Source: Polynucleobacter sphagniphilus
Lineage (GTDB): Bacteria > Pseudomonadota > Gammaproteobacteria > Burkholderiales > Burkholderiaceae
Assembly (NCBI RefSeq): GCF_001953355.1
Contig: NZ_MPIY01000017.1
Location: 124,001 to 188,000 of the forward strand
Length of the DNA: 64,000 nt
Direction of reading: 5' to 3'
Below the pieces are notes generated by a model. That model did not search any database, was not told the DNA's origin, and worked only from the letters and a program-made list of their open reading frames with translations. The stretch's first letter is position 1. Every line of letters begins with the position of its first letter. Below are positions 2,323 through 17,812 of the stretch, one piece after another. A program made the translations under genes and the position numbers.

Positions 2323-2385
2323 TGTCGTTTTAAACGACATCGACTGACGCAGGGATGAATAATGAATTTGTCCTTTTAAAGGACA
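2322..2385. repeat. Two near-identical palindromes after the TetR remnant
   Basis: ATGTCGTTT-T-AAACGACAT (2322-2340) and TGTCCTTT-T-AAAGGACA (2369-2385) share the pattern TGTC-S-TTTTAAA-S-GACA, differing by a compensated base pair. They lie just behind the TetR remnant. They could be operators of the lost regulator or hairpins; neither has a T-run. Confidence 0.5.
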
Positions 2386-2434
2386 TTTCTATATAGCGAT
2401 ATCCGGCTCTAATGGCATCTACATCTGACTCCCC

Positions 2435-2545
2435 AAATGAAAAAACCACCCGAAGGTGGTTTTGGTATTTCTTGGTGGCCCGGGGCGGAATCGACCAGAG
2501 CCTAGGATGCCCAATCCTAGCTAGACTACTTCCAGCTAAGGTTTA
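2435..2545 (-). repeat. Terminator plus decayed tRNA-Phe-like sequence, copy 1
   Basis: Read on the minus strand: a tRNA-like sequence with D-arm-like TAGCT...GTAG, an anticodon stem AGGAT...ATCCT like tRNA-Phe but with loop TTGGGCA, a T-arm with one base lost, acceptor end CCGGGCC and ACCA, then a hairpin ACCACC-TTCG-GGTGGT flanked by A/T runs. The T-arm and acceptor are nearly identical to the intact tRNA-Phe at 5141-5216. The 5' acceptor strand does not pair, so it is a pseudo-tRNA. The end of the brnA-like gene is read through it. Copies 2 and 3 start 669 and 1338 bases further on. Confidence 0.75.
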
Positions 2546-2735
2546 ACTTCTTACGAGATGCCGCACAATCTCTCAAATAAAGGTTAATGAGGCTTTGATA
2601 AGGAATGCCCACCTCTTCTGATACAGACTTGAAGTAACTCACTGAATCCTCATCCAATCTAATCGTAATGGGCTTCTTGAGCATAGAAGCATATGGATTT
2701 TTACGGGCTTTTGAGAAATCATATTCTTTACGCAT
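2526..2735 (-). CDS. brnA: BrnA-type antitoxin
   Basis: A 69-residue protein with a basic N-terminus (RKEYDFSKARKNPYASMLKKPITIRLDEDSVSYFKS) and the ribbon-helix-helix signature of BrnA: a PITIRLD strand then two helices ending IPYQSLINLYLRDCA. The family neutralises BrnT and represses the shared promoter. The start at ATG 2735 is chosen because AAGG lies 8 bases upstream; GTG 2744 and ATG 2741 are too close to that site. It follows brnT directly on the minus strand, the usual toxin-first order. Its last codons run into the pseudo-tRNA repeat, so the C-terminus may be recombined. Confidence 0.8.
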   Translation of the reverse strand: MRKEYDFSKARKNPYASMLKKPITIRLDEDSVSYFKSVSEEVGIPYQSLINLYLRDCAASRKKLNLSWK

Positions 2736-2746
2736 TTTCATCACCT

Positions 2747-3025
2747 TTAATAAGCTTTTGACTCTTTAGGAGTTGCCTTACGAGCCGAAATAATACGGAC
2801 AACATTGCCTTCCCTTCGATAGCAATGACAAACCAAAACTACACGAAGAGAATGGCTTACTCCCAGCAAGATAAATCTGTCTTCATCCTCCGAATGATCG
2901 GGATCGGAAATTAACTTAGCACTTTCATCATAAAAAACAGATTTCGCCTCTTCAAAAGAAATGCCGTGTTTCTTCAGATTGGCTGATGCTTTTCTGGGTT
3001 CCCATTCAAATCGCAATGAAGTCAT
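2747..3025 (-). CDS. brnT: BrnT-type toxin (RelE-like RNase)
   Basis: A 92-residue protein with the BrnT signature: FEWEPRKASANLKKHGISFEEAKSVF at the N-terminus and RIISARKATPKESKAY at the C-terminus. BrnT is a ribosome-independent RNase that arrests translation and is neutralised by BrnA. ATG 3025 is favoured because family members start close to FEW; a second ATG at 3040 would add five residues. Both starts lie in a palindrome (3024-3042) that is the likely BrnTA operator. The cassette sits between tRNA-like repeats 1 and 2. Confidence 0.85.
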   Translation of the reverse strand: MTSLRFEWEPRKASANLKKHGISFEEAKSVFYDESAKLISDPDHSEDEDRFILLGVSHSLRVVLVCHCYRREGNVVRIISARKATPKESKAY

Positions 3026-3042
3026 ATGTACATTGTACATAT
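3024..3042. promoter_or_regulatory. Palindromic operator at the brnTA start
   Basis: ATATGTACA-T-TGTACATAT is a perfect 9-bp dyad around one base and covers the start codon of brnT. The known autorepression of brnTA by the ribbon-helix-helix antitoxin makes this its likely target (inference). Confidence 0.6.
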
Positions 3043-3103
3043 ATTATTTGGGGTAAGCAACCAGGCTTAAAAATTCTGGTTCACGCAACCTTTCCGCAGG
3101 ACT

Positions 3104-3170
3104 AAATGAAAAAACCACCCGAAGGTGGTTTTGGTGTTTCTTGGTGGCCGGGGCGAAGTCGACCAGGGCC
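3104..3170 (-). repeat. Terminator plus tRNA-like 3' end, copy 2
   Basis: Same hairpin and T-arm/acceptor/ACCA sequence as copy 1, with small deletions in the acceptor and T-arm. The anticodon part is gone; similarity ends at GACCAGGGCC. It separates the brnTA cassette from the HAB-like gene, which ends 10 bases to its right. Confidence 0.75.
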
Positions 3171-3179
3171 AAAACAGAG

Positions 3180-3713
3180 CTATCCGTTCGAATACTCCGG
3201 ATTAAAGGTTTGAAATAAGGCAATTCCAATACAAGCTAAGAATAATGCTAATGAGGTGTAATTCATTGTCTTAACTCGACGAACTAAACAGTCATATTTT
3301 AAAAAGCCCGCAATGGCCAATAAAGTTGCAAGTACTGCCAAGAGAGATAGATTAATCAGCAATAAAGTTACAACATTCCAAAAGCCTGTCGCTCCTGGCA
3401 CTAAATCTTGATGAACAATATATTGCTCTTTACCGGCACCAAAAACACCTACAAAAAAAGTGCCCAGCCAATTGGCCCACAGTGAAATATAGAGAGAGAT
3501 AGTCGCAATCTTTTTTGAAAAAACTGGCAACGTTAATTGTGGCCACATCCAAGCAAATGCAAAGAATACTAGCGCCTGAACGACGCCAATTAAATGGGCT
3601 TGTAATATTCCGATTTGGGCAATTGCGTAAGGTGAGTAAATGGGCACCAATAATCCACACATCAGCATCAATAAGCCTGATATTAAGAAATATCTATTGA
3701 AGTGAAAATTCAT
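3180..3713 (-). CDS. HAB-like (hydroxylaminobenzene mutase family) membrane protein
   Basis: A 177-residue protein with four predicted membrane segments (about residues 8-30, 37-57, 72-92 and 112-137) plus a C-terminal hydrophobic segment. QAHLIGVVQALVFFAFAWMWPQL and SLWANWLGTFFVGVFGAGKEQ resemble HabA/HabB-type mutases (Ala-His-Leu near the second helix; Asn-Trp-Leu and Gly-Ala-Gly later). The family rearranges hydroxylaminobenzene to aminophenol, but most relatives are untested. AGGG lies 6 bases before the ATG. The gene stands alone between tRNA-like repeats 2 and 3, whose hairpins could terminate it. Confidence 0.6.
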   Translation of the reverse strand: MNFHFNRYFLISGLLMLMCGLLVPIYSPYAIAQIGILQAHLIGVVQALVFFAFAWMWPQLTLPVFSKKIATISLYISLWANWLGTFFVGVFGAGKEQYIVHQDLVPGATGFWNVVTLLLINLSLLAVLATLLAIAGFLKYDCLVRRVKTMNYTSLALFLACIGIALFQTFNPEYSNG

Positions 3714-3772
3714 TTTTTGCCCTAATTACTAAAGTTGAATTCTTCAATATTAGACTAAAAGCTTATTCTTAC

Positions 3773-3868
3773 AAATGAAAAAACCACCCGAAGGTGGTTT
3801 TGGTGTTTCTCGGTGGCCCGGCTCGGAATAGACCAGGACCTAGGATGTTTAATTCCGCCTCTAGACTG
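3773..3868 (-). repeat. Terminator plus decayed tRNA-like sequence, copy 3
   Basis: Identical hairpin segment to copies 1 and 2, then an acceptor/T-arm with several substitutions and an anticodon-stem region CATCCTAGG that matches copy 1 rather than tRNA-Phe. Copies 1 and 3 therefore share an ancestor already diverged from tRNA-Phe. It separates the HAB-like gene from the HigBA-type cassette. Confidence 0.75.
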
Positions 3869-3898
3869 TTGCTTTAAAAGACAATTTACTCTTGCTCA

Positions 3899-3920
3899 AT
3901 GTTAACAAATTTGTTAACAT
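3899..3920. promoter_or_regulatory. Perfect palindrome upstream of the HigBA-type operon
   Basis: ATGTTAACAAA followed by its exact inverse, a 22-bp perfect palindrome ending 6 bases before the toxin start codon. Likely operator for the HTH antitoxin encoded second in the operon (inference from autoregulated HigBA systems). Confidence 0.65.
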
Positions 3921-3926
3921 ACACGG

Positions 3927-4250
3927 ATGAGCTATTCCATCCTTTATTACAGCGAGCAGGTTCAAGAAGACATTATGAATCTTCCCGACACGCTTCAAGC
4001 TCGCTATATTGGATTGACCACTCGAATGATTGAGCATGGGCCGAATTTAGGCTTGCCTCATACGGATTCATTTGGCGGCGGCTTATTTGAATTAAGACTT
4101 AAAGGGGCTGAAGGTATCGCCCGAGTTTTCTTTTGTACGATGGTGGAGAAAGAAATAGTGATGCTCCATAGCTTTATTAAGAAGACTCAAAAGACGCCTG
4201 AGAAAGAATTAAAGATTGCGAAAGCACGTATGAAGGAGTGGAAAAAATGA
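3927..4250 (+). CDS. RelE/HigB-type toxin (phage-derived Gp49-like)
   Basis: A 107-residue protein matching the Gp49-like HigB family: YYSEQVQEDIMNLPDTLQARYIGLTTRMIEHGPNLGLPHTDSFGGGLFELRLKGAEGIARVFFCTM then HSFIKKTQKTPEKELKIAKARMKEW. These are ribosome-dependent mRNA interferases of the RelE fold; conserved Arg/Lys residues of the sheet (LFELRLK, IARVFF) and the C-terminal KKTQKTP helix are present. It precedes its antitoxin with a 4-base overlap, as usual for higBA. The operator-like palindrome lies directly upstream. Confidence 0.85.
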   Translation: MSYSILYYSEQVQEDIMNLPDTLQARYIGLTTRMIEHGPNLGLPHTDSFGGGLFELRLKGAEGIARVFFCTMVEKEIVMLHSFIKKTQKTPEKELKIAKARMKEWKK

Positions 4251-4558
4251 CAACACAGAAGAAAACAAAAATGCTTACCCATAAACAAATGATAAGCAAA
4301 ATGCTTAAAAAGCCAGCTGTAAAAGCCGCAGTCAAAGAACTTGATCGCACTGAATTTGCTATTCTTGATGAGATTCTTACGGCAAGGAAAGAGGCTGGAT
4401 TAACGCAAGCTCAAGTGGCAAAAAAGATGGGAACACAAACCCCAGCTATTGCTAGATTAGAAAGCTCTCTGGCTACCGGCAAACATTCCCCAAGCCTAAC
4501 TACCCTAAGAAAATATGCGGCGGCCTTGGGCAAGAGAGTTGAGCTTCATTTAGTCTGA
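4247..4558 (+). CDS. HigA-type antitoxin with XRE helix-turn-helix
   Basis: A 103-residue protein with an HTH_3 domain in the C-terminal half (ILTARKEAGLTQAQVAKKMGTQTPAIARLES, then a linker and LTTLRKYAAALG). It should bind and neutralise the preceding toxin and repress the operon. ATG 4247 overlaps the toxin stop (ATGA) and has AAGGAG 8 bases upstream; the GTG at 4238 lies inside that ribosome site and is unlikely. Confidence 0.85.
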   Translation: MTTQKKTKMLTHKQMISKMLKKPAVKAAVKELDRTEFAILDEILTARKEAGLTQAQVAKKMGTQTPAIARLESSLATGKHSPSLTTLRKYAAALGKRVELHLV

Positions 4559-4661
4559 GGACGTCTATATCCACTGTAATCATTTCACCCATAATTCATA
4601 ATAGCTATGTTTGAAATAAAATTGATTGATCAGTTTTACTTTCTGGGACAACTAATCAGAT

Positions 4662-5009
4662 ATGGCATTTAGCATTGAACAGCTAGGGGATATTGACTAT
4701 TTGGTCGGGCAGTGGTGTCTGCTTCTGGCTCCACTTGAAATCAAAAAAGATCTTGATTACGATTACGAAATCGATGGCCAGACTGTAAGTGTTTTTGAAG
4801 TTCGCCCTTTGTGGCGTGGAAAACCAGGAGAGTTAACTCGACGACCGTTTGTAAAATTTCGGTATATACAGTCTGAGGCTCTGTGGCATATTTATTGGAT
4901 GCGAGCCAGCGGAAAATGGCAAGCCTATGAGCCAAATCCAATCTCAAAAGATCTCAATGAGGCATTACAAGTTATTGATGCCGATCAATATGGCTGTTTC
5001 TTTGGATAA
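4662..5009 (+). CDS. DUF3024-family protein
   Basis: A 115-residue protein matching DUF3024: LDYDYEIDGQTVSVFEVRPLWRGKPGELTRRPFVKFRYIQSEALWHIYWMRASGKWQAYEP. The family is small, soluble and widespread in proteobacteria; its function is unknown. The conserved Tyr/Glu-rich strand (VFEVRPLW) and the W-x-I-Y-W-M-R-A strand are both here and the length is normal. It lies between the HigBA-type cassette and tRNA-Phe; no partner gene is evident. Confidence 0.8.
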   Translation: MAFSIEQLGDIDYLVGQWCLLLAPLEIKKDLDYDYEIDGQTVSVFEVRPLWRGKPGELTRRPFVKFRYIQSEALWHIYWMRASGKWQAYEPNPISKDLNEALQVIDADQYGCFFG

Positions 5010-5140: not shown

Positions 5141-5216
5141 TGGTGGCCCGGGGCGGAATCGAACCACCGACACAAGGATTTTCAATCCTCTGCTCTACCG
5201 ACTGAGCTACCAGGCC
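5141..5216 (-). tRNA. tRNA-Phe (GAA)
   Basis: A complete 76-nt cloverleaf with encoded CCA. Acceptor GGCCTGG pairs with CCGGGCC, D-arm GCTC/GAGC, anticodon stem GAGGA/TCCTT with loop TTGAAAA (anticodon GAA), T-arm GGTGG-TTCGATT-CCGCC. A TATAAT box lies upstream in the minus direction (about 5228-5233). Nucleotides 1-38 and the 27 bases upstream are duplicated at 17748-17812: this gene is the integration target of the element to its right. The intact gene therefore spans the left junction. Confidence 0.95.
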
Positions 5217-5243
5217 AAGACTTGGAATTATAAATGAAAGTGT
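5179..5243. repeat. Left attachment-site repeat (attL) in tRNA-Phe
   Basis: 65 bases identical to 17748-17812. The repeat runs from the anticodon loop to the tRNA 5' end and 27 bases into the upstream flank, including the TATAAT box. Bases on either side differ between the copies, so the repeat ends are sharp. Confidence 0.9.
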
Positions 5244-8805: not shown

Positions 8806-8826
8806 GTGTCGTGCTTAACACGACAC
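8806..8826. repeat. TGTCGTG-N5-CACGACA palindrome, copy 1
   Basis: GTGTCGTG-CTTAA-CACGACAC, 8-bp perfect arms, just after the end of the DUF6641-like gene. It is followed by CCCCTGCCCCT, nearly the same sequence as follows copy 6. Confidence 0.9.
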
Positions 8827-8835
8827 CCCTGCCCC

Positions 8836-9276
8836 TTACTTCTTAAACCCTAGCTTCAATGCCCCGCTAGCTGACTCAATTTGAGCATCAAGCTCTCCCG
8901 CTTCTACAGCCTGCTTAACCAGCTCAAGCGCCTTCACTAAGTTTTGTGCACTATCTACTTCAACGCTGTGCTTGCCTTTAGCAAGCTCAATCACTTTAGT
9001 GCCGTATTTGACTGACACGCAGACTTTGCCAGCTTCATTCTTAAACCACCACTCGCGAATACGCTTGGGAATTTCTACTTGGCGACGCAAACCAGTTTCT
9101 TTATCTTTAACGCTTTTGAACTTAGTAACAACAAATGGCGTGCCATCTATATGACTTTTGGCTAGCTGGATTTGCTCCCACAACTTGCTAGAAAGCTTGT
9201 TCCTGCGAAATACGATTGCAGGGATATGGGTAGGTTTTTTAGCTGTTGTTAGCTTGAGTGATTCCAATGCGCTCAT
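8836..9276 (-). CDS. DUF6641-like protein
   Basis: A 146-residue protein starting MSALESLKLTTAKKPTHIPA, with RRNKLSSKLWEQIQLAK, then VEIPKRIREWWFKNEAGKVCVSVKYGTKVIELAKGKHSVEV and a C-terminal helix. This recalls a plasmid- and island-borne family I know as DUF6641; the assignment is from memory. Function unknown; the KVCVSVKYG strands and W-W pair are probably the folded core. It is transcribed away from the iteron-like region, which occupies its upstream side, so it may belong to the element maintenance module. Confidence 0.55.
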   Translation of the reverse strand: MSALESLKLTTAKKPTHIPAIVFRRNKLSSKLWEQIQLAKSHIDGTPFVVTKFKSVKDKETGLRRQVEIPKRIREWWFKNEAGKVCVSVKYGTKVIELAKGKHSVEVDSAQNLVKALELVKQAVEAGELDAQIESASGALKLGFKK

Positions 9277-9410
9277 TTAATTTTCCTTGTTTGTTAATGG
9301 GCACATTTAATTTATTACCTGATTTGGGATTTGGTCGACCTCAATTTGTCCAAAACCACCAAATATCGCCAATATTTTTGTTTGTTTTCCTTTAGCAAAG
9401 CTAAATAAGT

Positions 9411-9580
9411 GTGAGTGGCGAAGTGAGTTGCGAATGAGTGGCTATAGAAATAAGTTGCGAATGAGTTACTACTTGGGACAAATGAGTAACTCTGACTCGT
9501 AACTACGCAACCCGAAGCAAGCAACCTCTCTTTTGAGATCTGCAACTTCTACGCAACTAACTGCGCCACTCACTGCAACC
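9411..9580. repeat. Iteron-like array with direct and inverted TGAGTTGCGAA units
   Basis: The gene-free stretch 9277-9597 holds tandem units GTGAGTGGCGAA (9411) and GTGAGTTGCGAA (9423), then TGAGTGGC, TAAGTTGCGAA (9451), TGAGTTAC, TGAGTAAC, and units in the opposite direction: ACTACGCAAC (9502), TCTACGCAACT (9548), CTGCGCCACTCAC (9561). Such mixed-orientation short repeats between divergent genes are typical of plasmid replication origins or partition sites, or of an operator cluster. AT-rich DNA (9360-9410) lies on the left. Confidence 0.6.
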
Positions 9581-9597
9581 AATAAGGAGAAATCAAT

Positions 9598-10047
9598 ATG
9601 CAGAAAGAAATCGCAGTTCGTTTGTTTCAAAATGCCAAATACGGCACAACCTACGCTAAAGGTGTTCGCCATCAAGCTCTATTTAATGCCACCGCAGACA
9701 TTAAGAATCCTAAAGTCAAATATGTCTTGGATTTTTATACTTATGAGCATTGGGAATTTCTGGCCAAAGAAAATCAACTAGAGATAGTCAATCAAGTTCG
9801 TAACGAAGTAGATAAGGACACGCTGGTTAGCTGGATAGTGCGTTATGACTTGGCAACAAAGACTAAAACATCCGTCTATGGCTTTGGCACTTTAAATATG
9901 AAATCTAATGAATTAATACTATGTGTATTAGATGGTGAGGCAAAAGTGGAGGATAGCTGGAAACTCACGGCTAAACCTTGTAGAGCTATTGCTGGAAAGA
10001 ATGTTGCTGAACTCCTAGCAACTAATAGTGAACTAGCCAGCTGGTGA
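9598..10047 (+). CDS. Unknown 149-residue protein beside the iteron-like array
   Basis: No family recognised. The sequence is a soluble alpha/beta type: EIAVRLFQNAKYGTTYAKGVRHQALFNATADI, VKYVLDFYTYEHWEFLAKE, and VSWIVRYDLATKTKTSVYGFGTLNM. AAGGAG lies 8 bases before ATG 9598, a strong ribosome site. It is the first gene to the right of the repeats and divergent from the DUF6641-like gene. It could be an element-specific DNA-binding or regulatory protein, but no HTH is evident. The strong hairpin at 10059 follows the stop by 11 bases. Confidence 0.6.
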   Translation: MQKEIAVRLFQNAKYGTTYAKGVRHQALFNATADIKNPKVKYVLDFYTYEHWEFLAKENQLEIVNQVRNEVDKDTLVSWIVRYDLATKTKTSVYGFGTLNMKSNELILCVLDGEAKVEDSWKLTAKPCRAIAGKNVAELLATNSELASW

Positions 10048-10058
10048 TTGAGAAAAAA

Positions 10059-10085
10059 CCACTGTCGTGTTTGGCACGACAGTGG
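10059..10085 (-). repeat. TGTCGTG-N5-CACGACA palindrome, copy 2 (extended, terminator-like)
   Basis: CCACTGTCGTG-TTTGG-CACGACAGTGG, 11-bp perfect arms. On the minus strand it is followed by TTTTTTCTC, so it works as an intrinsic terminator for the AAA ATPase gene ending at 10105. It lies between convergent genes. Confidence 0.9.
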
Positions 10086-10104
10086 TGATGGGAAATACAA
10101 CAGC

Positions 10105-10815
10105 TTACTGGGGCAATCTTCCACCCAACTTCACGCCTGCAATCATCACATCACTAGCAAAAGTTCTCAAAGAGCCTTTTGCTTTATGTGCAATCGCTGT
10201 AATAGCCGCTACAGGCAATGCGGTGGAAACAAGAGACATCTTCTGCAGTATGCTTTGTCCTATTGAAACATAGGCATTAGCATCTGCCGACTGGTTCATT
10301 TCAATCAAAAAGCTACGATTGATAATGCCATCGTCAATACGGTCAAGATAATTGGTTGTAAAGATGAACTGACAACGCTTCAAGTCCATGACTGATTTAA
10401 GTGACTGCTGTGCAGATACAGTGAGCTTATCCACCTCATCAAACAAGAAGTAGTCAGTTTGACCATAGTGGTGAAAAGGATTTCGGCTATTGCACATGGT
10501 GATCTGCTTAACAATCGCCGTGCTACTTAAACCCCCTCCACAACGAAATATCTCAGGGATAGCATCTTCAACTACCTGCATTTGCCCAATAGGGCTTGTT
10601 TGTGGATAGTTACCTGCATACGCTGTTTCAAGCAGGCTAGGCAATAAAAATCCTAAAGTGCTTTTACCAGTGCCATAAGTGCCATGCAGCAAAATGCCAC
10701 TTTTGCCATTAAATGGAAATGGCAATTGGCGACTGAGAATGAGCTCCAATACTTCTCGCTCTGTTGAATTGTTAATCAAAAAGTCGTCTAAACAACTGGG
10801 TGCAAATAAGGACAT
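10105..10815 (-). CDS. Clamp-loader-like AAA ATPase
   Basis: A 236-residue AAA protein: Walker A GTYGTGKST (about 45-53), Walker B FLFDEVDK (123-130), sensor 1 FIFTTN (150-155) and a candidate arginine finger in INRSF (165-169). The order resembles replication factor C small subunits and other helicase/clamp loaders. No helicase or nuclease domain is fused. ATG 10815 is chosen because AGGAGG lies 4 bases upstream; a longer frame to 10866 would cross the terminator hairpin. It follows the 320-residue gene on the same strand. Possible roles: plasmid-type replication or a remodelling ATPase for the partner (inference). Confidence 0.8.
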   Translation of the reverse strand: MSLFAPSCLDDFLINNSTEREVLELILSRQLPFPFNGKSGILLHGTYGTGKSTLGFLLPSLLETAYAGNYPQTSPIGQMQVVEDAIPEIFRCGGGLSSTAIVKQITMCNSRNPFHHYGQTDYFLFDEVDKLTVSAQQSLKSVMDLKRCQFIFTTNYLDRIDDGIINRSFLIEMNQSADANAYVSIGQSILQKMSLVSTALPVAAITAIAHKAKGSLRTFASDVMIAGVKLGGRLPQ

Positions 10816-10834
10816 AGTCCCTCCTATTAAGTGT

Positions 10835-10864
10835 AAAAAAGGGGCTATGTAAATACATAGCCCC
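10835..10864 (-). terminator. Terminator/attenuator between the 320-residue gene and the AAA gene
   Basis: GGGGCTATGTA and TACATAGCCCC form an 11-bp perfect stem with a 2-base loop (10841-10864), followed on the minus strand by TTTTTT. It sits between two co-directional genes, so the AAA gene is expressed only by read-through or its own promoter. Confidence 0.85.
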
Positions 10865-10873
10865 AATGGTTAA

Positions 10874-11836
10874 TTAAGCAAACTCAGCTTGCAGTTGCTC
10901 TGTAGCCTGTGTTTCTGTCACAAAAACATTGTTAAATGCTTCTGTCGCTTTCACTGCTTGTGCTTTTTCTGCAATTTCTTGTGCAGTCTTAGCAATTTGC
11001 TTGGCTGCCTTGTCTTCTGCTTTCGCTTCTGACTTTTGCACTTTTGCGGCTTCTTCTTCTGCTTTTTTCAGCGCATTAAGTTGTTCACGCTTTTTAGCTT
11101 GTGCCAGTGTGTAATACGCTGCCAACGCAGTATTCACAGCACCATCGTGACGAACTACAGCGTTTACTTCAAATTCGCCTGTAGGCAAGTAAGTGGCCAC
11201 AAACACCACTTGCTTGTCCACCCAGTCTGCATTTGCCTTAACTGTTTCAGCGTCAAACTTCACCTTACTGATCACAGCTTCGCTTACTTCGGCTTTAACA
11301 AGCTCAGCTCGCTTAGTGGCTGACAAAGGCTTAGTGCCACCCATACGAATTTGCTCAACACCACCGTTTTCTTGCAAAAATGCAACCAAGTCATCAGCTC
11401 CAACCTCTTGTCGCAATGCTTCACGCAAAGCAATTGAATATGCTGAAACACGACGACGATCAACACCAAATACACACTTAACAACACGAGTCATATCGTG
11501 TGTTGTGGCGCCAAAGCTATTGGTATAGCCCTTGTCAGCGATAAATGCCTCCATCGCCTCTAGCTTAGCTTTACGCACTTCTTTGTCAGCGTCTTGCTTC
11601 ATCACCAGATAAAAGCTGTAAGCCTGCTTCAAAATGCCGTATAAGCGATTATTAGACTGAGCAAGTTCAACTGTTTCCCAGCTAATACGGGCTGACTCCA
11701 AAGACTTCAATTGCTCAAATGCGCTAGGCTGAGCAGCGGGTGTCGTGTCAAACACGACAACCGTTGCAGGCACATTCAGGGCTGCCAAGTTAATTGAAGG
11801 ATTTACTGCGTTTACTGCCAAAGTTGCTGTTGTCAT
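10874..11836 (-). CDS. Unknown 320-residue protein with Ala/Lys-rich coiled-coil C-terminus
   Basis: No family recognised. Residues 1-40 are low complexity. Residues about 40-165 look like a folded helical domain (FEQLKSLESARISWETVELAQSN, GILKQAYSFYLVMK, then RVVKCVFGVDRRRVSAYSIALREAL). The middle has strand-like VVFVATYLPTGEFEVNAVV. The last ~80 residues are Ala/Glu/Lys coiled coil (KKREQLNALKKAEEEAAK). AAGGAG lies 7 bases before the ATG. It precedes the AAA ATPase gene, with a terminator hairpin between. One TGTCGTG palindrome falls inside its N-terminal codons. The pair is probably a functional unit of the element. Confidence 0.65.
   Translation of the reverse strand: MTTATLAVNAVNPSINLAALNVPATVVVFDTTPAAQPSAFEQLKSLESARISWETVELAQSNNRLYGILKQAYSFYLVMKQDADKEVRKAKLEAMEAFIADKGYTNSFGATTHDMTRVVKCVFGVDRRRVSAYSIALREALRQEVGADDLVAFLQENGGVEQIRMGGTKPLSATKRAELVKAEVSEAVISKVKFDAETVKANADWVDKQVVFVATYLPTGEFEVNAVVRHDGAVNTALAAYYTLAQAKKREQLNALKKAEEEAAKVQKSEAKAEDKAAKQIAKTAQEIAEKAQAVKATEAFNNVFVTETQATEQLQAEFA
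11741..11759. repeat. TGTCGTG-N5-CACGACA palindrome, copy 3 (inside a coding region)
   Basis: TGTCGTG-TCAAA-CACGACA within codons for VVVFDTT near the start of the 320-residue protein gene, about 80 bases inside it. The spacer TCAAA is identical to copy 6. Confidence 0.9.
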
Positions 11837-11979
11837 AAGGTTTCTCCTTTTAATGACGGGTTAGTAAATATGCGGACTGCTTTTGGTTTGTTTCGCTGCC
11901 CACAACCCCTACTATCCGCATTAACTATTTAATTGGTCATAGTTGATATATACTGTTAATCCTATATAGGTAAAGGCTT

Positions 11980-12915
11980 ATGCGGTATATCAGAGGCATT
12001 CAAAAGGGGATTGGGCGATTACGCTCCCGCACCATTGAGGAGGAGCTCAGTTATGCCCGCACTAGCGTTAGGCGTTGGTGGTGGGAGTATTTGCGGCTTA
12101 GCAAAGACTATTGGCTGATTTGCCAAACCTCCTCCAACCCCATGAATCCACGGACAACGGATGAAGGCATGCGTTGGCTATATAGAAAATTTGGGGATAT
12201 TCACAGCGTGGATTTTGATACTTGGTATGAAAAGAAAGGCTCATACCTGTTTAGAGAGCAGGTTGAATTGCCCAAAGTAATGGAGGTTGCCGATGACCTT
12301 AGTAATTTATCCGAAGAGCGGGATGGCAAGCTATTGCTAGAGATTCCACTGTCCATGAGTCAGGCATCTATCAATCGACAGATCAATCGCATACTGAAAA
12401 AACATATCAGTGAACGCCCCACCAATAAATTGGAAACAAGTAAGTCAGAATTTCCAATTAACCCTGTCTTGTATCGCTTGCCTACTTTGCAAAAAATGCA
12501 CGAAGTCTGGTGCTTGCATAGAGAGTTGATTGCTAAGACTGTTGCATTGGGTGACGCAGTGGATAAGTATTCGACTAAAGGTGATTTATTTCGGATTGGC
12601 AAAGTTTTACGATTAAGTCCAGCCAACGAGAGCCCAGCCGAAGATCCATTCATTCATCACAAGCGGCTAAACATCATGCGAGCTACAGTAAGCCGTTACT
12701 TAAATCGCGCCAATATGTTGATTGGCAATGTGGAGATAGGTCAGTTTCCTCGCTTTACAAAAATTTCCCCAATCGAAAGATTTAGCAAGGGGCAAAGAGA
12801 ATCCCATAAAGAGCTAGAAAAACTTTGGTGGGAACTGGATTTAACTTCGACACTAAGTGGGACAAAGATAGAGGATGCCAAGAAGATTGTTTATAGCTGG
12901 TATGGTAATAAGTAG
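11980..12915 (+). CDS. Unknown 311-residue island protein
   Basis: No named family recognised. The N-terminus is basic and aromatic (RLRSRTIEEELSYARTSVRRWWWEYLRLSKDYWLICQTS), followed by an alpha-helical body. LEIPLSMSQASINRQINRILKKH near residue 130 resembles a helix-turn-helix-like pair and suggests nucleic-acid binding (inference). Similar Trp-rich N-termini occur, from memory, in island proteins near recombinases. It runs opposite to the 320-residue gene with about 140 bp between, and is convergent with the small recombinase. The stop codon TAG is the first part of palindrome copy 4. Confidence 0.6.
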   Translation: MRYIRGIQKGIGRLRSRTIEEELSYARTSVRRWWWEYLRLSKDYWLICQTSSNPMNPRTTDEGMRWLYRKFGDIHSVDFDTWYEKKGSYLFREQVELPKVMEVADDLSNLSEERDGKLLLEIPLSMSQASINRQINRILKKHISERPTNKLETSKSEFPINPVLYRLPTLQKMHEVWCLHRELIAKTVALGDAVDKYSTKGDLFRIGKVLRLSPANESPAEDPFIHHKRLNIMRATVSRYLNRANMLIGNVEIGQFPRFTKISPIERFSKGQRESHKELEKLWWELDLTSTLSGTKIEDAKKIVYSWYGNK

Positions 12916-12937
12916 TGTCGTGTTGATCACGACACTA
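12913..12937. repeat. TGTCGTG-N5-CACGACA palindrome, copy 4
   Basis: TAGTGTCGTG-TTGAT-CACGACACTA, 10-bp perfect arms, starting at the stop codon of the 311-residue gene and ending 12 bases before the stop of the convergent recombinase gene. Confidence 0.9.
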
Positions 12938-12948
12938 TTAACAATTAG

Positions 12949-13515
12949 TTATATCAACTCAACGGCCGCTCTTTTCATATCGTCATTCACATCAATGTAT
13001 TTTTGCGTCACAGCGATACTCTTGTGTCCCGCTAGGCTAGCCAAGATGCGCACAGAGATGCCCTTGTTTGCCAAGGTCGTAATAAATTGCCTACGACCAC
13101 TGTGGCTACTAGCGCCAGCGATACCTGCTCGCTTATAAAGCCAAAAGAAGTGCTGGCATAGGGTATTGGGTGTCCAGCCCAAACGCTTAGATGTATGGAA
13201 CAAGGGAATGTCAGGCATGGTGATATGTCGGGTTTTGAGATACACAGCCAATTCTTCTTTTAGTTTTGCTGGCAAGAACACCGTTCTGCCGTCATTCCCT
13301 TTAGTTTGCTGTGCACTTAAACGAATTTCACTTTTAATCGTGCCATCTTCATTTAATACATCTCCCATTTTTAATTGGGCAATTTCTTTAACGCGAAGTC
13401 CTGCCCAGTATCCCATGAGCAACATTGCGCGATTGCGCTGTGCATAAGTTGTGCTGCTGATGTAGCGTAAGACTTGTTCTAATTCATTTGTGGTGAGTGT
13501 TTTTGCTTGAGCCAT
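12949..13515 (-). CDS. Short tyrosine recombinase (catalytic domain only)
   Basis: A 188-residue protein with a complete catalytic set: Arg in GLRVKEIA (about residue 41), Lys in QQTKGNDGR (72), His-x-x-Arg in SHSGRRQF (about 138-141), His in LAGHKS (about 164), and nucleophile Tyr in TQKYID (173). The N-terminal core-binding domain of XerCD-type enzymes is missing, giving the size of FimB/FimE-type invertases. AAAGGA lies 6 bases before the ATG. An inverted repeat with 18-bp arms lies 108 bp upstream of the start and may be its substrate (inference). It is distinct from the integrase at 16333. Confidence 0.85.
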   Translation of the reverse strand: MAQAKTLTTNELEQVLRYISSTTYAQRNRAMLLMGYWAGLRVKEIAQLKMGDVLNEDGTIKSEIRLSAQQTKGNDGRTVFLPAKLKEELAVYLKTRHITMPDIPLFHTSKRLGWTPNTLCQHFFWLYKRAGIAGASSHSGRRQFITTLANKGISVRILASLAGHKSIAVTQKYIDVNDDMKRAAVELI

Positions 13516-13622
13516 TTTTGTCCTTTAGATAAATAAAACTGTGTATGCAGTTTGTATTCTTTTGCTCAAAAGGACGACCAGTTTGCGTCAAAAATAATCT
13601 TTCCAAGAATCAATGACTTAGC

Positions 13623-13670
13623 ATTTAGCGCCACCAAAGAAAATAGCAATAATCTTTGGTGGCGCTAAAT
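13623..13670. repeat. Perfect 18-bp inverted repeat in the recombinase-ars gap
   Basis: ATTTAGCGCCACCAAAGA (13623-13640), a 12-base interior, then its exact inverse (13653-13670). It lies in the gene-free stretch 13516-13922, which also holds palindrome copy 5, a CAGGG-GGTT-CCCTG hairpin near 13746 and the hairpin at 13847-13875. No T-run follows, so a terminator is unlikely; a recombination site for the neighbouring recombinase or a regulatory RNA hairpin are options. Confidence 0.85.
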
Positions 13671-13818
13671 ATATTTATACAAATCGTGGGATAAAGACGA
13701 CGAATTTAAGCAAACACCTCAAATCAGCTCTACACGCTTAAACCAGGGGGTTCCCTGATGCACAGCTATTTGGCGCCGCAATTAGTTTGCATATAGACGG
13801 TTTTTGAGGGGGTTGTGA

Positions 13819-13837
13819 TGTCGTGTTTAACACGACA
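13819..13837. repeat. TGTCGTG-N5-CACGACA palindrome, copy 5
   Basis: TGTCGTG-TTTAA-CACGACA in the gap between the small recombinase and the ars operon. Confidence 0.9.
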
Positions 13838-13846
13838 CCTTACTTA

Positions 13847-13875
13847 ACGACTGCTTATTACTTCAAAGCAGTCGT
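13847..13875. terminator. Hairpin downstream of the ars operon
   Basis: ACGACTGCTT (13847-13856) and AAGCAGTCGT (13866-13875) form a 10-bp stem. It lies about 50 bases after the aquaporin stop on the minus strand. No T-run follows in that direction, so its strength is uncertain. Confidence 0.45.
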
Positions 13876-13922
13876 TTGTATTACATATTTACCGCTGGCA
13901 ACTTTCGACCCAAAGAAGACTA

Positions 13923-14594
13923 TCAAAGCCCTCTTGTATAGCTCTTGCTATCTTTTGGCTCAACTAAGGCAAGAATTCCGACAATCAGTAGTGCCGCTAA
14001 AACTTCAGCTACAACAAATCCTAATACATCACTAGGAGCAATTCCCACAAAGGTATTGGTTAAGCTCCTTGCCACTGCTACTGCTGGATTGCTAAAGAAG
14101 GTAGATGAAGTAAACCAGTAGCCCGCTGTAACTGTCAAAGCAACCAACATTGGAACCTTATCTTTAGCCTCTTTATCTCCGATGTGAATTACCGAGAGCA
14201 ATACGAGTGTTGATACAAGCTCACTCACCCAAATACCCAATCCTGTTCTGACTTTGGTAGATTCTTGAATAATTGGCAGGCTGAACATTAAATGTGTGAG
14301 CCATATTCCAGCAATAGCGCCTGTGAACTGACAAACCCAATAGCCCAACATCTTTTTCAAATCGAGATGCCCTAGCTTCCAAAACATCAAAGTGACTACT
14401 GGATTAAAGTGAGCTCCCGAGATGGGTCCTAGCAAAACAATTAAAGCGTAGAGTCCTGCCCCAGTAGCAATGCTATTTCCAAGTAAAGCTACTGCGGCAT
14501 TACCAGAACCCAATGTCTCGCCCATAAAACCAGAGCCCGCTACTATTGCCAAAAGCAATGCTGTGCCCACAAACTCACAGACATAACTTCTCAT
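13923..14594 (-). CDS. aqpS: MIP-family channel (aquaglyceroporin) in the ars operon
   Basis: A 223-residue, six-helix MIP channel. The first half-helix motif is NPV (residues 64-66, in SGAHFNPVVT) and the second NPA (169-171, in FFSNPAVAVAR) with the expected Arg at 176. In Sinorhizobium meliloti AqpS works with ArsC: arsenate is reduced and arsenite leaves through the channel down its gradient. Here the same pair is present and no arsB or acr3 pump gene is in the window. It overlaps arsC by 4 bases (ATGA) and is the last gene of arsR-arsC-aqpS. The symbol is by analogy. Confidence 0.85.
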   Translation of the reverse strand: MRSYVCEFVGTALLLAIVAGSGFMGETLGSGNAAVALLGNSIATGAGLYALIVLLGPISGAHFNPVVTLMFWKLGHLDLKKMLGYWVCQFTGAIAGIWLTHLMFSLPIIQESTKVRTGLGIWVSELVSTLVLLSVIHIGDKEAKDKVPMLVALTVTAGYWFTSSTFFSNPAVAVARSLTNTFVGIAPSDVLGFVVAEVLAALLIVGILALVEPKDSKSYTRGL

Positions 14595-15070
14595 GCTTTT
14601 GTATGGATATCTTTTAGGCTCATTGAATCTAACTTGTCTAATGGCATATCAGCTAAAAGATTAATACGCTTTTTGAGTCCAATCATCACATCTTTAAATG
14701 CTTTGCGCTTATCTTCATCGGTGCCTTGGACTTGGGATGGGTCAGGAAATCCCCAGTGTGCTGTTGCTGGATTGCCAGGCCAGAATGGACATTGCTCACC
14801 AGCGGCTTGATCACAAACAGTAATGATGAAATCCATCTTAGGAGCATCGGGCAAACCGTATTCGTCCCAGCTTTTGCTTCTCAACTTGCTTTGGTCGTAA
14901 CCCATTTCTTTAGTCAACTCTGCCGCAAATGGATTAACAGAGGTGCCAGGACTAGATCCTGCTGAATAACCAACAAATAATCCACTGGGATGGGTTGATG
15001 CTAATGCTTCACCTAATACAGAGCGGGCGGAGTTATGGGTACAGAGAAACAGGATGTTGTATTGCTTCAT
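14591..15070 (-). CDS. arsC: Arsenate reductase, thioredoxin-coupled (low-MW phosphatase fold)
   Basis: A 159-residue protein of the LMW protein-tyrosine-phosphatase fold. The phosphate loop CTHNSARS is at residues 10-17 and the redox cysteines Cys86 and Cys94 are in VCDQAAGEQCPFWPG, the arrangement of thioredoxin-dependent ArsC. These cysteines separate it from plain LMW-PTPs. It reduces arsenate to arsenite in the cytoplasm. It overlaps arsR and the aquaporin gene by 4 bases at each side, so all three are translationally coupled. Confidence 0.9.
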   Translation of the reverse strand: MKQYNILFLCTHNSARSVLGEALASTHPSGLFVGYSAGSSPGTSVNPFAAELTKEMGYDQSKLRSKSWDEYGLPDAPKMDFIITVCDQAAGEQCPFWPGNPATAHWGFPDPSQVQGTDEDKRKAFKDVMIGLKKRINLLADMPLDKLDSMSLKDIHTKA

Positions 15071-15396
15071 TTGACTTTGGCTTTCTTCAAAGGTTTAACG
15101 GGAGTACAGGATTTACCGCCACAGCAGTTATCTAATAAAAATTCACTTAGCTTTTGAACTTGCTCGGCATTAGGTCTATAGATGAGATTACGACTTTGAC
15201 GCTCTACCAATAAAAGCTCGGCATCTACTAAATCTTTTAGGTGAAAGCTGAGGGTGGCATTGGGGATACCGAGTTTTTCAATAATTTGACTTGGGGTTAA
15301 CCCAAGATCGCCACGCTGGACAATGAGGCGAAACACATTTAGTCGGGTTTCCTGCCCTAAAGCGAGAAAAGCAGAGATAGCGTTATCATTGTTCAT
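15067..15396 (-). CDS. arsR: ArsR-type arsenic-responsive repressor
   Basis: A 109-residue winged-helix ArsR protein. The HTH includes TPSQIIEKLGIPNATLSFHLKDLVDAELL. The metalloid site is not the classical CVC helix motif; instead Cys91, Cys92 and Cys97 cluster at the C-terminus (NCCGGKSC), like the As(III)-binding ArsR of Acidithiobacillus ferrooxidans. It should repress the arsRC-aqpS operon and perhaps the divergent arsH until arsenite binds. The 94-bp divergent region contains a dyad at 15395-15418. Confidence 0.9.
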   Translation of the reverse strand: MNNDNAISAFLALGQETRLNVFRLIVQRGDLGLTPSQIIEKLGIPNATLSFHLKDLVDAELLLVERQSRNLIYRPNAEQVQKLSEFLLDNCCGGKSCTPVKPLKKAKVK

Positions 15397-15418
15397 ATTT
15401 CGAATTATATGGAAATAT
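15395..15418. promoter_or_regulatory. Candidate ArsR operator
   Basis: ATATTTC (15395-15401) and GAAATAT (15412-15418), an inverted repeat with a 10-base spacer in the arsR-arsH divergent region, touching the arsR start. Placement and symmetry fit an ArsR site; this is inference. Confidence 0.5.
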
Positions 15419-15490
15419 ATGACAGTTTTATGAAAGCGTATTCTTCATAGTCGCCTACCTGTAATAGCACTCTGTAACCAATAATCATCC

Positions 15491-16201
15491 ATGCCTGACC
15501 TTTCTAATATCGATAAAGCACTCTTTCACAAGCCCACCCTTGATGAATTAACTGTTAAATCTTCCCAAAGTCATCCACCGAGAATCTTGCTTTTATACGG
15601 CTCACTCAGGGAGCGGTCATTTAGTCGCCTCCTAGCCGAAGAAGCTGAGCGAATCTTAGAGGCAATGGGTTGTGAAACACGATTCTTTAATCCCAAGGGA
15701 TTGCCGCAAGTAGACGATGCCCCTGAAACACATCCCAAAGTAGTGGAACTAAGAGAGTTGGTTCAATGGGCAGAAGGAATGGTTTGGAGCAGTCCTGAGC
15801 GACACGGAGCTATGACAGGATTAATGAAATCGCAGATTGATTGGATCCCACTTAGCGTTGGCGCTGTAAGACCCTCACAAGGCAAGACGCTGGCTTTATT
15901 ACAAGTAAGCGGCGGATCACAATCTTTTAATGCGGTTAATCAAATGCGAATTTTAGGTAGATGGATGCGGATGATCACCATTCCCAATCAATCATCCGTA
16001 CCTAAAGCATTTTTAGAGTTTGCCGACAATAATCGAATGAAGCCATCCGCCAATTACGATCGTGTAGTTGATGTGATGGAAGAGTTAGTTAAGTTCACTC
16101 TATTAACCAGATCAGTTTCGGGCCATTTAACCGATCGCTACAGTGAGCGCAAAGAGAGTGCTGAGGAATTATCTAAAAGAGTAAACCAAAGAAGTTCTTA
16201 A
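15491..16201 (+). CDS. arsH: ArsH, NADPH-dependent flavin oxidoreductase
   Basis: 236 residues matching ArsH throughout: the flavodoxin-like FMN site [10 protein letters not shown] (37-46), then [35 protein letters not shown] and [21 protein letters not shown]. ArsH oxidises trivalent methylated and aromatic arsenicals, detoxifying organoarsenicals. It is divergent from arsRC-aqpS across a shared control region. The start at ATG 15491 gives the normal family length; its ribosome site is weak. Confidence 0.92.
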
Positions 16202-16300
16202 TTAATCTTATGCCGTTAAGGCTGCTATTGGCCGTTCTCTGCCCACCAAACTCATAAAATCACCCTATTTTGAGTGTCTGCAGTCTGTCCAATATCAGCC

Positions 16301-16319
16301 TGTCGTGTCAAACACGACA
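16301..16319. repeat. TGTCGTG-N5-CACGACA palindrome, copy 6
   Basis: TGTCGTG-TCAAA-CACGACA between the arsH stop and the integrase stop. It is followed by CCCTTGCCCCT, as in copy 1, which also lies at the 3' side of a minus-strand gene. Confidence 0.9.
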
Positions 16320-16332
16320 CCCTTGCCCCTGT

Positions 16333-17547
16333 TTATGCCAACCTATCTGCTGCCATTGTTGCCGTCATCTTGCTGTAATGCCTCTCAATCATATTCACAC
16401 TAGTTCCCATTTGCCGTGCAAGCGTATGTATATCAATGCCGCTTGCTAACGCAAAAGTAGCATAAGTGTGTCGCAAGCTATACAGCGTTCGGTTTAAGCC
16501 ACCACTATCCTTACGCATACTGCTTCGCACCATTAAGTTTCTAAATATATTTTCCATATTGCTTATCTGTGTGTTGTCAGGCAAACAAAAGATGGCTTTG
16601 TCTAACTTAGCTTCAATTAGTCCATTTAAGTTTGTGTAGTCCAACTTATGCCAACGCATTAGACGCTCAAATACCTTTATCACTTCGTGCTTAGCAATCA
16701 GATAGCGTGGACCAGTCTTGCCGCTTACCCAAACACGCAAATATTTTTTATTACCAATCCAATGCCATTGCAAGTGCTTCCATCGCAAGCGTAGTGCTTC
16801 TGTGCCGTGTCGCACTCCAGTGTTTACCAAAAATTCTATGTAAGCAACACACAGCGTTCGCATTAGTCTTGTGCGTTCTGTATAGCTACTCTTTACCCAA
16901 GTCTCTGTATAACTTATCAACTCAATAATTTCTTCTTTACTAAAAGCTGGGCGAGGCTGACTACGCTTGCCTTTGCTGTCCAACATCGGCACAGCACGAT
17001 TGTGTGCAACATAGCCACGCTCTCTCGCTAAATTCACAACACGAATGTATGCACTTGCGTGATTGCGTTTCGTGCTTGCCATCGGCACTTTATTCATTTC
17101 AGTAATTCGCCACGCATCAAAATCTGCAAGCATCTCTGTCGTAATTTTTTCTACTTCGTAGGCGCCAAAAAAAGGAATGAGATATTTGTTAATTGCAAAA
17201 ATGTAATCTCTATAACAACGACGACCAATGTTGTTATCCAATGCTCTACTCATATTTGCAATTTCATCTAACGCAATCTGCTTAAATGTTTTCGTAGTGA
17301 TTGCCAAGCCAGCATCTGTTTTTATTTTTACAGTTTCAATAATTGCAATCGCATTTATCTTTGCTTGCTCTATGTCGTCTGTATTTGTTGTAGTGCTGTG
17401 CCACTTGTTGTTCGCTAACTTAAATCGCACTTGCCACTGCACCGACTGCGGACGCTTATACAGCAAGGCTTTGCCGTCCATCAGCCTTACTTGTTTAATA
17501 GTATTTGCGTCAAACTGTGTTGTAAATAATTGTTGTAGTGAGGACAT
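16333..17547 (-). CDS. Phage-type tyrosine integrase of the element
   Basis: About 404 residues from ATG 17547. An N-terminal DNA-binding part (FKLANNKWHSTTTNTDDIEQAK) and SAM-like core-binding domain precede the catalytic domain with Arg in VNTGVRHGTEALRLRW, Lys in VSGKTGPR, His-x-x-Arg in YSLRHTYATFAL and Tyr in ERHYSKM. Length and layout are those of tRNA-targeting integrases. A TTG at 17574 would add nine residues; neither start has a clear ribosome site. The start faces attR 200 bp away, the usual position for the integrase of such elements. Confidence 0.9.
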   Translation of the reverse strand: MSSLQQLFTTQFDANTIKQVRLMDGKALLYKRPQSVQWQVRFKLANNKWHSTTTNTDDIEQAKINAIAIIETVKIKTDAGLAITTKTFKQIALDEIANMSRALDNNIGRRCYRDYIFAINKYLIPFFGAYEVEKITTEMLADFDAWRITEMNKVPMASTKRNHASAYIRVVNLARERGYVAHNRAVPMLDSKGKRSQPRPAFSKEEIIELISYTETWVKSSYTERTRLMRTLCVAYIEFLVNTGVRHGTEALRLRWKHLQWHWIGNKKYLRVWVSGKTGPRYLIAKHEVIKVFERLMRWHKLDYTNLNGLIEAKLDKAIFCLPDNTQISNMENIFRNLMVRSSMRKDSGGLNRTLYSLRHTYATFALASGIDIHTLARQMGTSVNMIERHYSKMTATMAADRLA

Positions 17548-17574
17548 ACACTTAAGTATGTTTTCAAATGCCAA

Positions 17575-17747
17575 CTTGGACGACGATTAGTTTTTTATCG
17601 TCGCAAAAATCCCACGCAATACTCTGCGAACAAAATTATGTGTGTGATTTTTTTATTGAGTGCCGCAGATTTTTCTGCGAATTGAACGGCGCTGTGAAGA
17701 GAAGCTTTTGACTAATGTTTACAACTGTCAAACATCGAAAAATATTT
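17575..17747. other. Integrase-attR gap with short repeats
   Basis: This part of the gene-free stretch 17575-17950 holds a hairpin (CGACGAT and ATCGTCG near 17580-17602), a dyad GCAGA-TTTTT-TCTGC near 17665, and two direct copies of TCTGCGAA. Such repeats beside the core site could be arm-type integrase sites and the int promoter (inference). From 17813 to 17950 I see nothing specific. Confidence 0.4.
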
Positions 17748-17812
17748 TTTTCAATCCTCTGCTCTACCGACTGAGCTACCAGGCCAAGACTTGGAATTAT
17801 AAATGAAAGTGT
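17748..17812. repeat. Right attachment-site repeat (attR): 5' half of tRNA-Phe
   Basis: A perfect 65-bp copy of 5179-5243. Bases 17748-17785 are nucleotides 38 to 1 of tRNA-Phe in antisense, followed by 27 bases of the tRNA upstream flank with its TATAAT box. The 3' half is absent, so this is a tRNA fragment, not a gene. Confidence 0.92.

Follow-up and report, generated by a model that had tools for sequence, protein, structure and literature searches.

The island and its palindromes

The DNA analysed here (the window) is a stretch of 64,000 nucleotides of Polynucleobacter sphagniphilus (assembly GCF_001953355.1, contig NZ_MPIY01000017.1, positions 124,001 to 188,000), in which a 12.6-kb island, bounded by two identical 65-bp direct repeats, lies at a tRNA-Phe gene. 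The island encodes a small tyrosine recombinase (sINT), a large phage-type integrase (bINT), an AAA ATPase, a DUF6641 protein and three further proteins (P149, P311 and P320), and has a cargo that looks like an arsenic operon (Table 1). All six exact copies of the palindrome TGTCGTG-N5-CACGACA found in the window by pattern scan are inside this island. The results presented below suggest that an island-specific protein reads these palindromes to mark or insulate the modules of the island.

A preliminary description of the window had reported six copies with perfect arms and the spacers given in Table 1, and the scan recovered all of them; three of the reported starts were exact and the other three were 1–4 bases off. 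Dinucleotide shuffles of the window contained no exact matches with spacers of N3–N8, and a first-order Markov model predicts 0.002 copies per whole genome. The genome (2,042,438 bp, 17 contigs) has seven exact copies, and allowing up to two mismatches adds none; the control pattern (the palindrome read backwards) gives 0 exact matches and 7 with up to two mismatches. The seventh copy (C17:276793) belongs to a second, related island, where it adjoins a homologue of the DUF6641 gene, so in this genome the palindrome is confined to this kind of element; the earlier description of the copies as confined to the one element was nearly correct. With six of the seven copies in one island, these are multiple conserved sites of one mobile element, and the genome-wide dispersal of REP/RAYT systems was not found.

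Table 1. Palindromes, repeats and genes in the window.
Feature	Position	Strand	Remarks
Palindrome copy 1	8807..8825		spacer CTTAA; 10 nt 3' of DUF6641 gene stop
Palindrome copy 2	10063..10081		spacer TTTGG; convergent gap, ends of 149-aa and AAA genes
Palindrome copy 3	11741..11759		spacer TCAAA; within 320-aa open reading frame, start 77 nt away
Palindrome copy 4	12916..12934		spacer TTGAT; convergent gap, ends of 311-aa and small recombinase genes
Palindrome copy 5	13819..13837		spacer TTTAA; cargo-slot border, recombinase side; 85 nt 3' of last cargo gene stop
Palindrome copy 6	16301..16319		spacer TCAAA; cargo-slot border, integrase side; 13 nt 3' of large integrase stop
tRNA-Phe gene	5141..5216		
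Left direct repeat, 65 bp	5179..5243		identical to right copy; overlaps tRNA-Phe
Right direct repeat, 65 bp	17748..17812		identical to left copy
DUF6641 protein gene	8836..9276	-	Pfam PF20346
P149, 149-aa protein gene	9598..10047	+	without Pfam match
AAA ATPase gene, clamp-loader-like	10105..10866	-	Pfam PF00004, phrog_168
P320, 320-aa protein gene	10874..11836	-	candidate palindrome reader; no recognised DNA-binding family
P311, 311-aa protein gene	11980..12915	+	no family match; no PDB match
sINT, 188-aa catalytic-domain-only tyrosine recombinase gene	12949..13515	-	Pfam PF00589; second candidate reader
Cargo: MIP channel, LMW phosphatase, HTH regulator, FMN reductase	13923..16201		
bINT, 413-aa phage-type integrase gene	16333..17574	-	Pfam PF00589, phrog_1
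Sibling palindrome TGTCGTTTTAAACGACA	2323..2339		outside island; begins ~100-bp composite repeat

The island family in the genus

The island family is common in Polynucleobacter. Relatives of sINT are present in 95 of 186 genus genomes (E≤1e-20), those of bINT in 77 (E≤1e-60) and those of P320 in 68 (E≤1e-15), and the islands combine DUF6641, the 149-aa protein, sINT, the 311-aa protein, P320, the AAA ATPase and bINT in varying sets. Across the order, a P320 profile matched 5 of 300 genomes, 3 of these from the genus.

The genome-wide search proposed in the preliminary description was made in 101 genus genomes (~208 Mb). Nine of them hold exact palindromes, 23 copies in all (7, 4, 3, 3, 2, 1, 1, 1, 1), against 0.25–0.59 expected and none of the control pattern, and 17 of these copies belong to islands that have homologues of the window's core genes. 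Of the remaining six, G083 and G039 contribute two at ~7–9 kb from such an island, G031 and G043 two close to an autotransporter-like gene, and G003 the last two. Three loci (L022, L029, L032) have one copy of this type each, 3' of DUF6641; they were left out of the nine relatives compared below. The first two have only 48–50% sINT identity, and none has P320 in view. Scanning viral_contigs (71 stretches) and genome_contigs (at least 117 stretches) for the pattern returned mostly single copies in unrelated taxa, in the latter case among the 80 stretches listed.

Other palindrome types

Related islands carry other repeated palindromes, with their own type in several shared slots. A de novo search of 49 loci, window included, identified TTGTCGG-N5-CCGACAA (3 copies in L320), AGCGTTACTTAAAGTAACGCT (4 copies in L330, two of them flanking one 411-aa gene), GCGTAAA-N5-TTTACGC (3 in L331), GTCCTT-N3-AAGGAC (6 in L336) and TGTCGTTTTAAACGACA (4 in L257 and 6 in L334); many of the 49 loci had no repeated palindrome at the stringency used. 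Elsewhere TGTCGTTTTAAACGACA forms clusters of 5–8 copies per 10–12 kb in other islands. The wider pattern TGTCGT-N4-8-ACGACA matched in 77 of the 101 genomes with up to 12 copies each, the control with up to 5 each.

Type switching is seen at the 3' end of DUF6641, where a TGTCGTG-, TGTCGTT-, GCGTTAC- or GTCCTT-type palindrome is found according to the island. Such a typed palindrome fills this slot in 17 of 60 DUF6641 copies, and the slot without one often has some other hairpin. The three TGTCGG-type copies of L320 are 65–74 bp upstream of bINT, P320 and sINT. L030 mixes TGTCGTG and TGTCGTT types; its two TGTCGTT copies are 3' of a 341-aa gene and of DUF6641, a placement shared with L376 and L382, which are islands of the TGTCGTT type, and L030 therefore looks like a recombinant.

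Several further repeats were observed in these loci. GCGTTAG-N5-CTAACGC is inside the P320 reading frame in L390, L391, L392 and L396, at +76 (+28 in L390), a position nearly equal to that of the window's palindrome type. Longer inverted repeats of different sequence are upstream of sINT in L303, L327 and L330 (11-6-11 at L327:9590 and 15-6-15 at L330:9636), in size reminiscent of Xer/dif sites. Directly before the bINT start, inspection by eye showed in several islands an inverted repeat with 7–8-bp arms, which differ between islands, and a 9-bp gap (in the window just above 17574, L320, L327). Outside the island, a composite ~100-bp repeat at window positions 2323–2424 recurs in L253, L255, L256, L260, L261 and L266. 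It starts with TGTCGTTTTAAACGACA and a 28-bp block; next come a second palindrome, which is GTCCTTTTAAAGGAC or, in L254, another TGTCGTTTTAAACGACA, and ~50 bp. A profile of it matched 33 times among the fetched loci, some of the matches being incomplete. The small genes left of the tRNA gene (window 2526–5009) recur in islands of other genomes (L253, L254, L260, L266) at protein identities of 92–100%, a few at 80–83%.

Conservation and position of the sites

Among 106 homologous pairs of copies, the arms are 96% identical, the spacers 69% and the better flank 69%; the arm figure is biased upwards, since copies were chosen with at most two arm mismatches and lost copies were excluded. With this bias kept in mind, the comparison agrees with the earlier proposal of two-fold-symmetric sites under selection. 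Homologous copies (window 11741 and 10063 vs L024, L298 and others) sometimes have reverse-complement spacers (TCAAA/TTTGA, TTTGG/CCAAA), as if a hairpin loop had flipped. This is suggestive only: such spacers were found in 11 of 83 non-identical homologous pairs vs 7.7% of random pool pairs.

The window and its relatives contain 35 distinct TGTCGTG-type copies: 16 in tandem gaps, 10 in convergent gaps, 4 inside P320 and 5 at contig or locus edges. A stop codon is at most 25 nt upstream in 22 of the 26 intergenic copies and none of the 26 is in a divergent gap; many copies occupy the same slot in related islands, so these position counts are not independent. Divergent gaps do hold the TGTCGTT type (12 of 56 intergenic copies) and the TGTCGG type (3 of 14). 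Sites at gene ends or in gaps, with one inside a coding region, had been described before, and the coding one is copy 3 in the 320-aa reading frame, whose slot is also filled in L024, L298, L299, L300 and L030, and with one mismatch in L302. A global operator had been among the options offered in the preliminary description. Given the absence of copies between divergent genes, a promoter-operator layout is not supported for this island type, and promoter operators were rejected by position for TGTCGTG palindromes.

The sites also lack the features of ordinary terminators. On the best strand, the 12 nt after the palindrome contain 4.31 T vs 4.53 at random (35 copies), and on the gene strand the figure is 4.04 T, against 5.54 and 6.00 in two families of ordinary terminators from these loci. 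In the window, a terminator-like score was obtained for copy 2 only (1 of 6), on the minus strand, which is also the copy singled out earlier for its T-run. Ordinary terminators are thus ruled out by T counts, copy 2 excepted; arms conserved over spacers and no excess of T bear out the view that these are not six unrelated terminators.

Candidate reader proteins

The type of palindrome was compared with that of the island encoding the nearest protein relative. Agreement was 22/23 for P320, 16/17 for P311, 14/15 for AAA, 18/20 for P149, 31/38 for sINT, 25/32 for bINT and 19/31 for DUF6641. Islands were typed by palindrome counts within 6 kb, which assigned 39 of 50 islands, three of them by hand; one was excluded as its copies belong to a neighbour, and ten had no typed palindrome. 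For L264, L321 and L333 the type was taken from cargo copies, probably wrongly, so some of the agreement scores are lowered.

Comparison of the nine relatives of the window's type narrows the choice. The preliminary description had named the 311-, 320- and 149-residue proteins as candidate binders. P311 is only 29–31% identical in L298, L300 and L301, and P149 only 34% in L026, with the same palindrome, which tells against both. Three more core proteins are also argued against as common reader: bINT is 24–26% identical in L024, L026 and L302, DUF6641 is 97% identical in L302 and L312, which are of different types, and AAA is absent in L302. These swaps and absences leave P320 and sINT. L026 and L311 have no P320, contig ends truncate it in L299 and L300, and in L301 its region is not in view. 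Among the core genes sINT alone keeps at least 83% identity (83–99%) in all nine relatives, six of which were fetched by sINT similarity; its L311 copy is truncated. The sINT residues R41, K72, H138, R141, H164 and Y173, which we take to be catalytic, are invariant in 17 relatives.

A typed palindrome is within 200 nt of the start of P320 in 11 of 20 copies (8 within the reading frame, 3 upstream); the 20 are from 32 matches, the 12 scoring below 50 bits having been excluded. The same test gave 1/64 for sINT, 10/64 for bINT, 1/17 for AAA, 0/33 for P149, 0/60 for DUF6641 and 7/21 for P311, the divergent neighbour of P320. One of the 11 palindrome-bearing P320 copies (L257) has an internal stop. 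A de novo search showed a perfect palindrome of the reported kinds in 15 of 43 distinct P320 start regions, four of these being of a further type. A type-matched palindrome in its own start region favours P320 as reader and self-regulator, and the cargo borders (see below) and L026 favour sINT; we lean towards P320. Its AlphaFold model shows helices and a beta hairpin and ends in a long helix at the C terminus (mean pLDDT 75.6, moderate confidence; 69.4, also moderate, for P311), and neither model had a useful PDB match. Searches of phages and plasmids gave no match for P320, and a search of plasmids gave three distant Bradyrhizobium matches for P311.

The reading that we tentatively place first, at somewhat less than an even chance, is that the palindromes are protein-read, stoperator-like barrier sites of island-specific specificity, the reader most likely being P320. 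An island-encoded, presumably dimeric DNA-binding protein would bind the palindromes, its binding specificity would differ between related islands, and the bound protein may block or silence transcription where the island's transcription units end, as at phage stoperators, and may regulate its own gene. Each cargo unit would thereby be insulated.

Several observations weigh against this proposal. P320 has no recognised DNA-binding family or structural match, and no palindrome of the kinds above is found in 9 of the 20 P320 copies or in 28 of the 43 start regions; in L327 the TGTCGG type is at bINT and P320 has none. L026 keeps exact copies with no P320 homologue in the locus, its genome having two P320 copies elsewhere. 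G002, G003, G043 and G094 have one or two palindromes and no P320 match, and G031 has one copy and only a distant match. The earlier expectation that copies track with the 320-aa gene is thus borne out in part, six of the nine palindrome genomes being without a close relative. Of the 23 copies that have a gene end, 22% are followed by at least 4 T in a row (11% and 33% in the two terminator families), no promoter consensus overlaps the two L320 TGTCGG-type copies scanned, and the exact cargo borders are better explained by recombination.

Cargo borders and recombination

The slot between the sINT-side (13819) and bINT-side (16301) palindromes is filled by other genes in L298, L299, L300, L301 and L302, and by a 619-aa gene in both L030 and L311. 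These last two are collinear over 8.5 kb at 88.6%, which rules out a common cargo on different backbones. Altogether eight of ten islands have seven different cargos in the slot, and L024 and L026 have a single palindrome and no cargo. It is possible, though less probable than barrier sites, that the palindromes are recombination sites of sINT, at which units of a gene or operon with one 3' palindrome are exchanged in the manner of integron cassettes.

The diversity of cargo in one slot, the retention of sINT with intact catalytic residues and the borders of some island pairs support this explanation. Eleven island pairs were compared, seven of them with different cargo, and in four of the seven (window/L298, window/L301, window/L030, L299/L311) homology ends at most 5 bp from both palindromes; window and L298 align at 12951–13836 and 16300–17811 with 92–93% identity and nothing between. 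In the other three pairs a border is off the palindrome: window and L299 have ~75 bp of cargo in common at both ends, and two pairs with L300, which is without the sINT-side copy, have a palindrome border on the integrase side only. With all loci taken together, typed palindromes coincide with 46 of 560 alignment ends, 21 times the random figure, but enrichment is also found at palindrome-free gene 3' ends (7.8x) and other hairpins (4.8x). In TGTCGTT-type arrays some homologous genes keep the palindrome with unrelated sequence beyond it, and for 14 of 197 alignment ends both sequences have a palindrome at most 25 bp away.

Other findings fit recombination poorly. The flanking spacers differ in all seven islands having both sites, so there is no matching overlap sequence; those of L030 and L302 are reverse complements, and the other five differ in either orientation. 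Differing spacers hinder most tyrosine recombinases, and some recombinases tolerate them. The P320 reading frame itself contains copies and others separate core genes of kept order, TGTCGTT-type arrays occur in genomes without an sINT match at E≤1e-20 (G059, G033, G023), and L024 and L026 are not clean empty sites, having a different large integrase (26%).

More broadly, the islands may form a non-integron cassette system, in which most units would consist of a gene or operon with one 3' palindrome read by an island-encoded protein (a catalytic-domain-only tyrosine recombinase, a coiled-coil DNA-binding protein, or both), and related islands within one genus would have at least six palindrome specificities that can replace one another. 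We regard this possibility as rather doubtful.

RNA hairpins and dispersed repeats

The palindromes would have a different meaning as RNA hairpins in 3' untranslated regions and early coding sequence, controlling stability, processing or translation through an island RNA-binding protein. The avoidance of divergent gaps by TGTCGTG-type copies, their constant stems and free loops, a mean fold energy of -12 kcal/mol and the many islands with some hairpin of unrelated sequence directly 3' of DUF6641 are consistent with this. We nevertheless consider it unlikely: TGTCGTT- and TGTCGG-type copies do occur in divergent gaps, a plain hairpin does not need a constant stem sequence, and most of the few single-base departures seen by eye leave no G-U pair on the transcribed strand.

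It is very improbable that the palindromes are REP/BIME-like repeats that propagate as neutral or selfish hairpins. The genome has only seven copies, all in one island family, slots are kept between diverged islands, and the single Y1-type transposase gene of the genome (C17:249344) is elsewhere on the contig. In favour of such repeats are the presence of that gene, the 3'-end location and the mosaic composites of TGTCGTT-type arrays, in which a palindrome and a 28-bp block are followed by a second palindrome of one of two types.

Relation to known systems

Stoperators are located close to gene ends, and related phages have different ones. The islands resemble phages with stoperators in that one site recurs many times across a single mobile element; they differ in that the sites are 19-bp palindromes, the hosts are islands and no helix-turn-helix (HTH) family was detected in the candidate P320. 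In cluster A mycobacteriophages (L5, TipsytheTRex), stoperators are present in many copies in one mobile genome and read by its own repressor, which binds the asymmetric 13-bp consensus as a monomer with an HTH (PMC9283540); the island sites, as 19-bp palindromes, lack such a consensus.

In IncP plasmids, KorB and KfrA operators are several palindromic sites for one element-encoded protein, and KfrA-like proteins have a long coiled coil. The islands share the arrangement of several palindromic sites with a putative reader of their own, but no KorB, ParA, ParB or KfrA family is among the matches of island core proteins. Integron cassettes consist of a gene and an attC site just 3' of the stop codon, with a tyrosine recombinase nearby. 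The gene-plus-site unit right after the stop and the nearby tyrosine recombinase are similar here; however, both window recombinases score far below the curated NCBIfam cut-off for the integron integrase IntI, the 19-bp palindromes are not attC, genes are in both orientations and one site is in a reading frame. REP/BIME repeats are 3'-end palindromes with mosaic composites, as are the island palindromes, but the latter have few copies, belong to one island family in this genome and change type with the island.

Literature searches on Polynucleobacter islands, palindromes, cassettes and integrases, on DUF6641, on the sibling palindrome and on related elements yielded nothing on these sites; a 2017 island paper cited by PMC5644125 may describe them. 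The available part of PMC5644125 itself mentions islands, with no mention there of palindromes, repeats, integrases or tRNA, and reports genomic island exchange as a major driver of gene-content change in one Polynucleobacter species. New here are the commonness of the island family in the genus and the presence of other repeated palindromes in related islands, whose own type fills several shared slots. If one protein reads the palindromes, they would reveal how foreign cargo is kept in order or silent within an island and how further cargo is added, and islands would fall by palindrome type into compatibility groups, like the immunity groups of phages.

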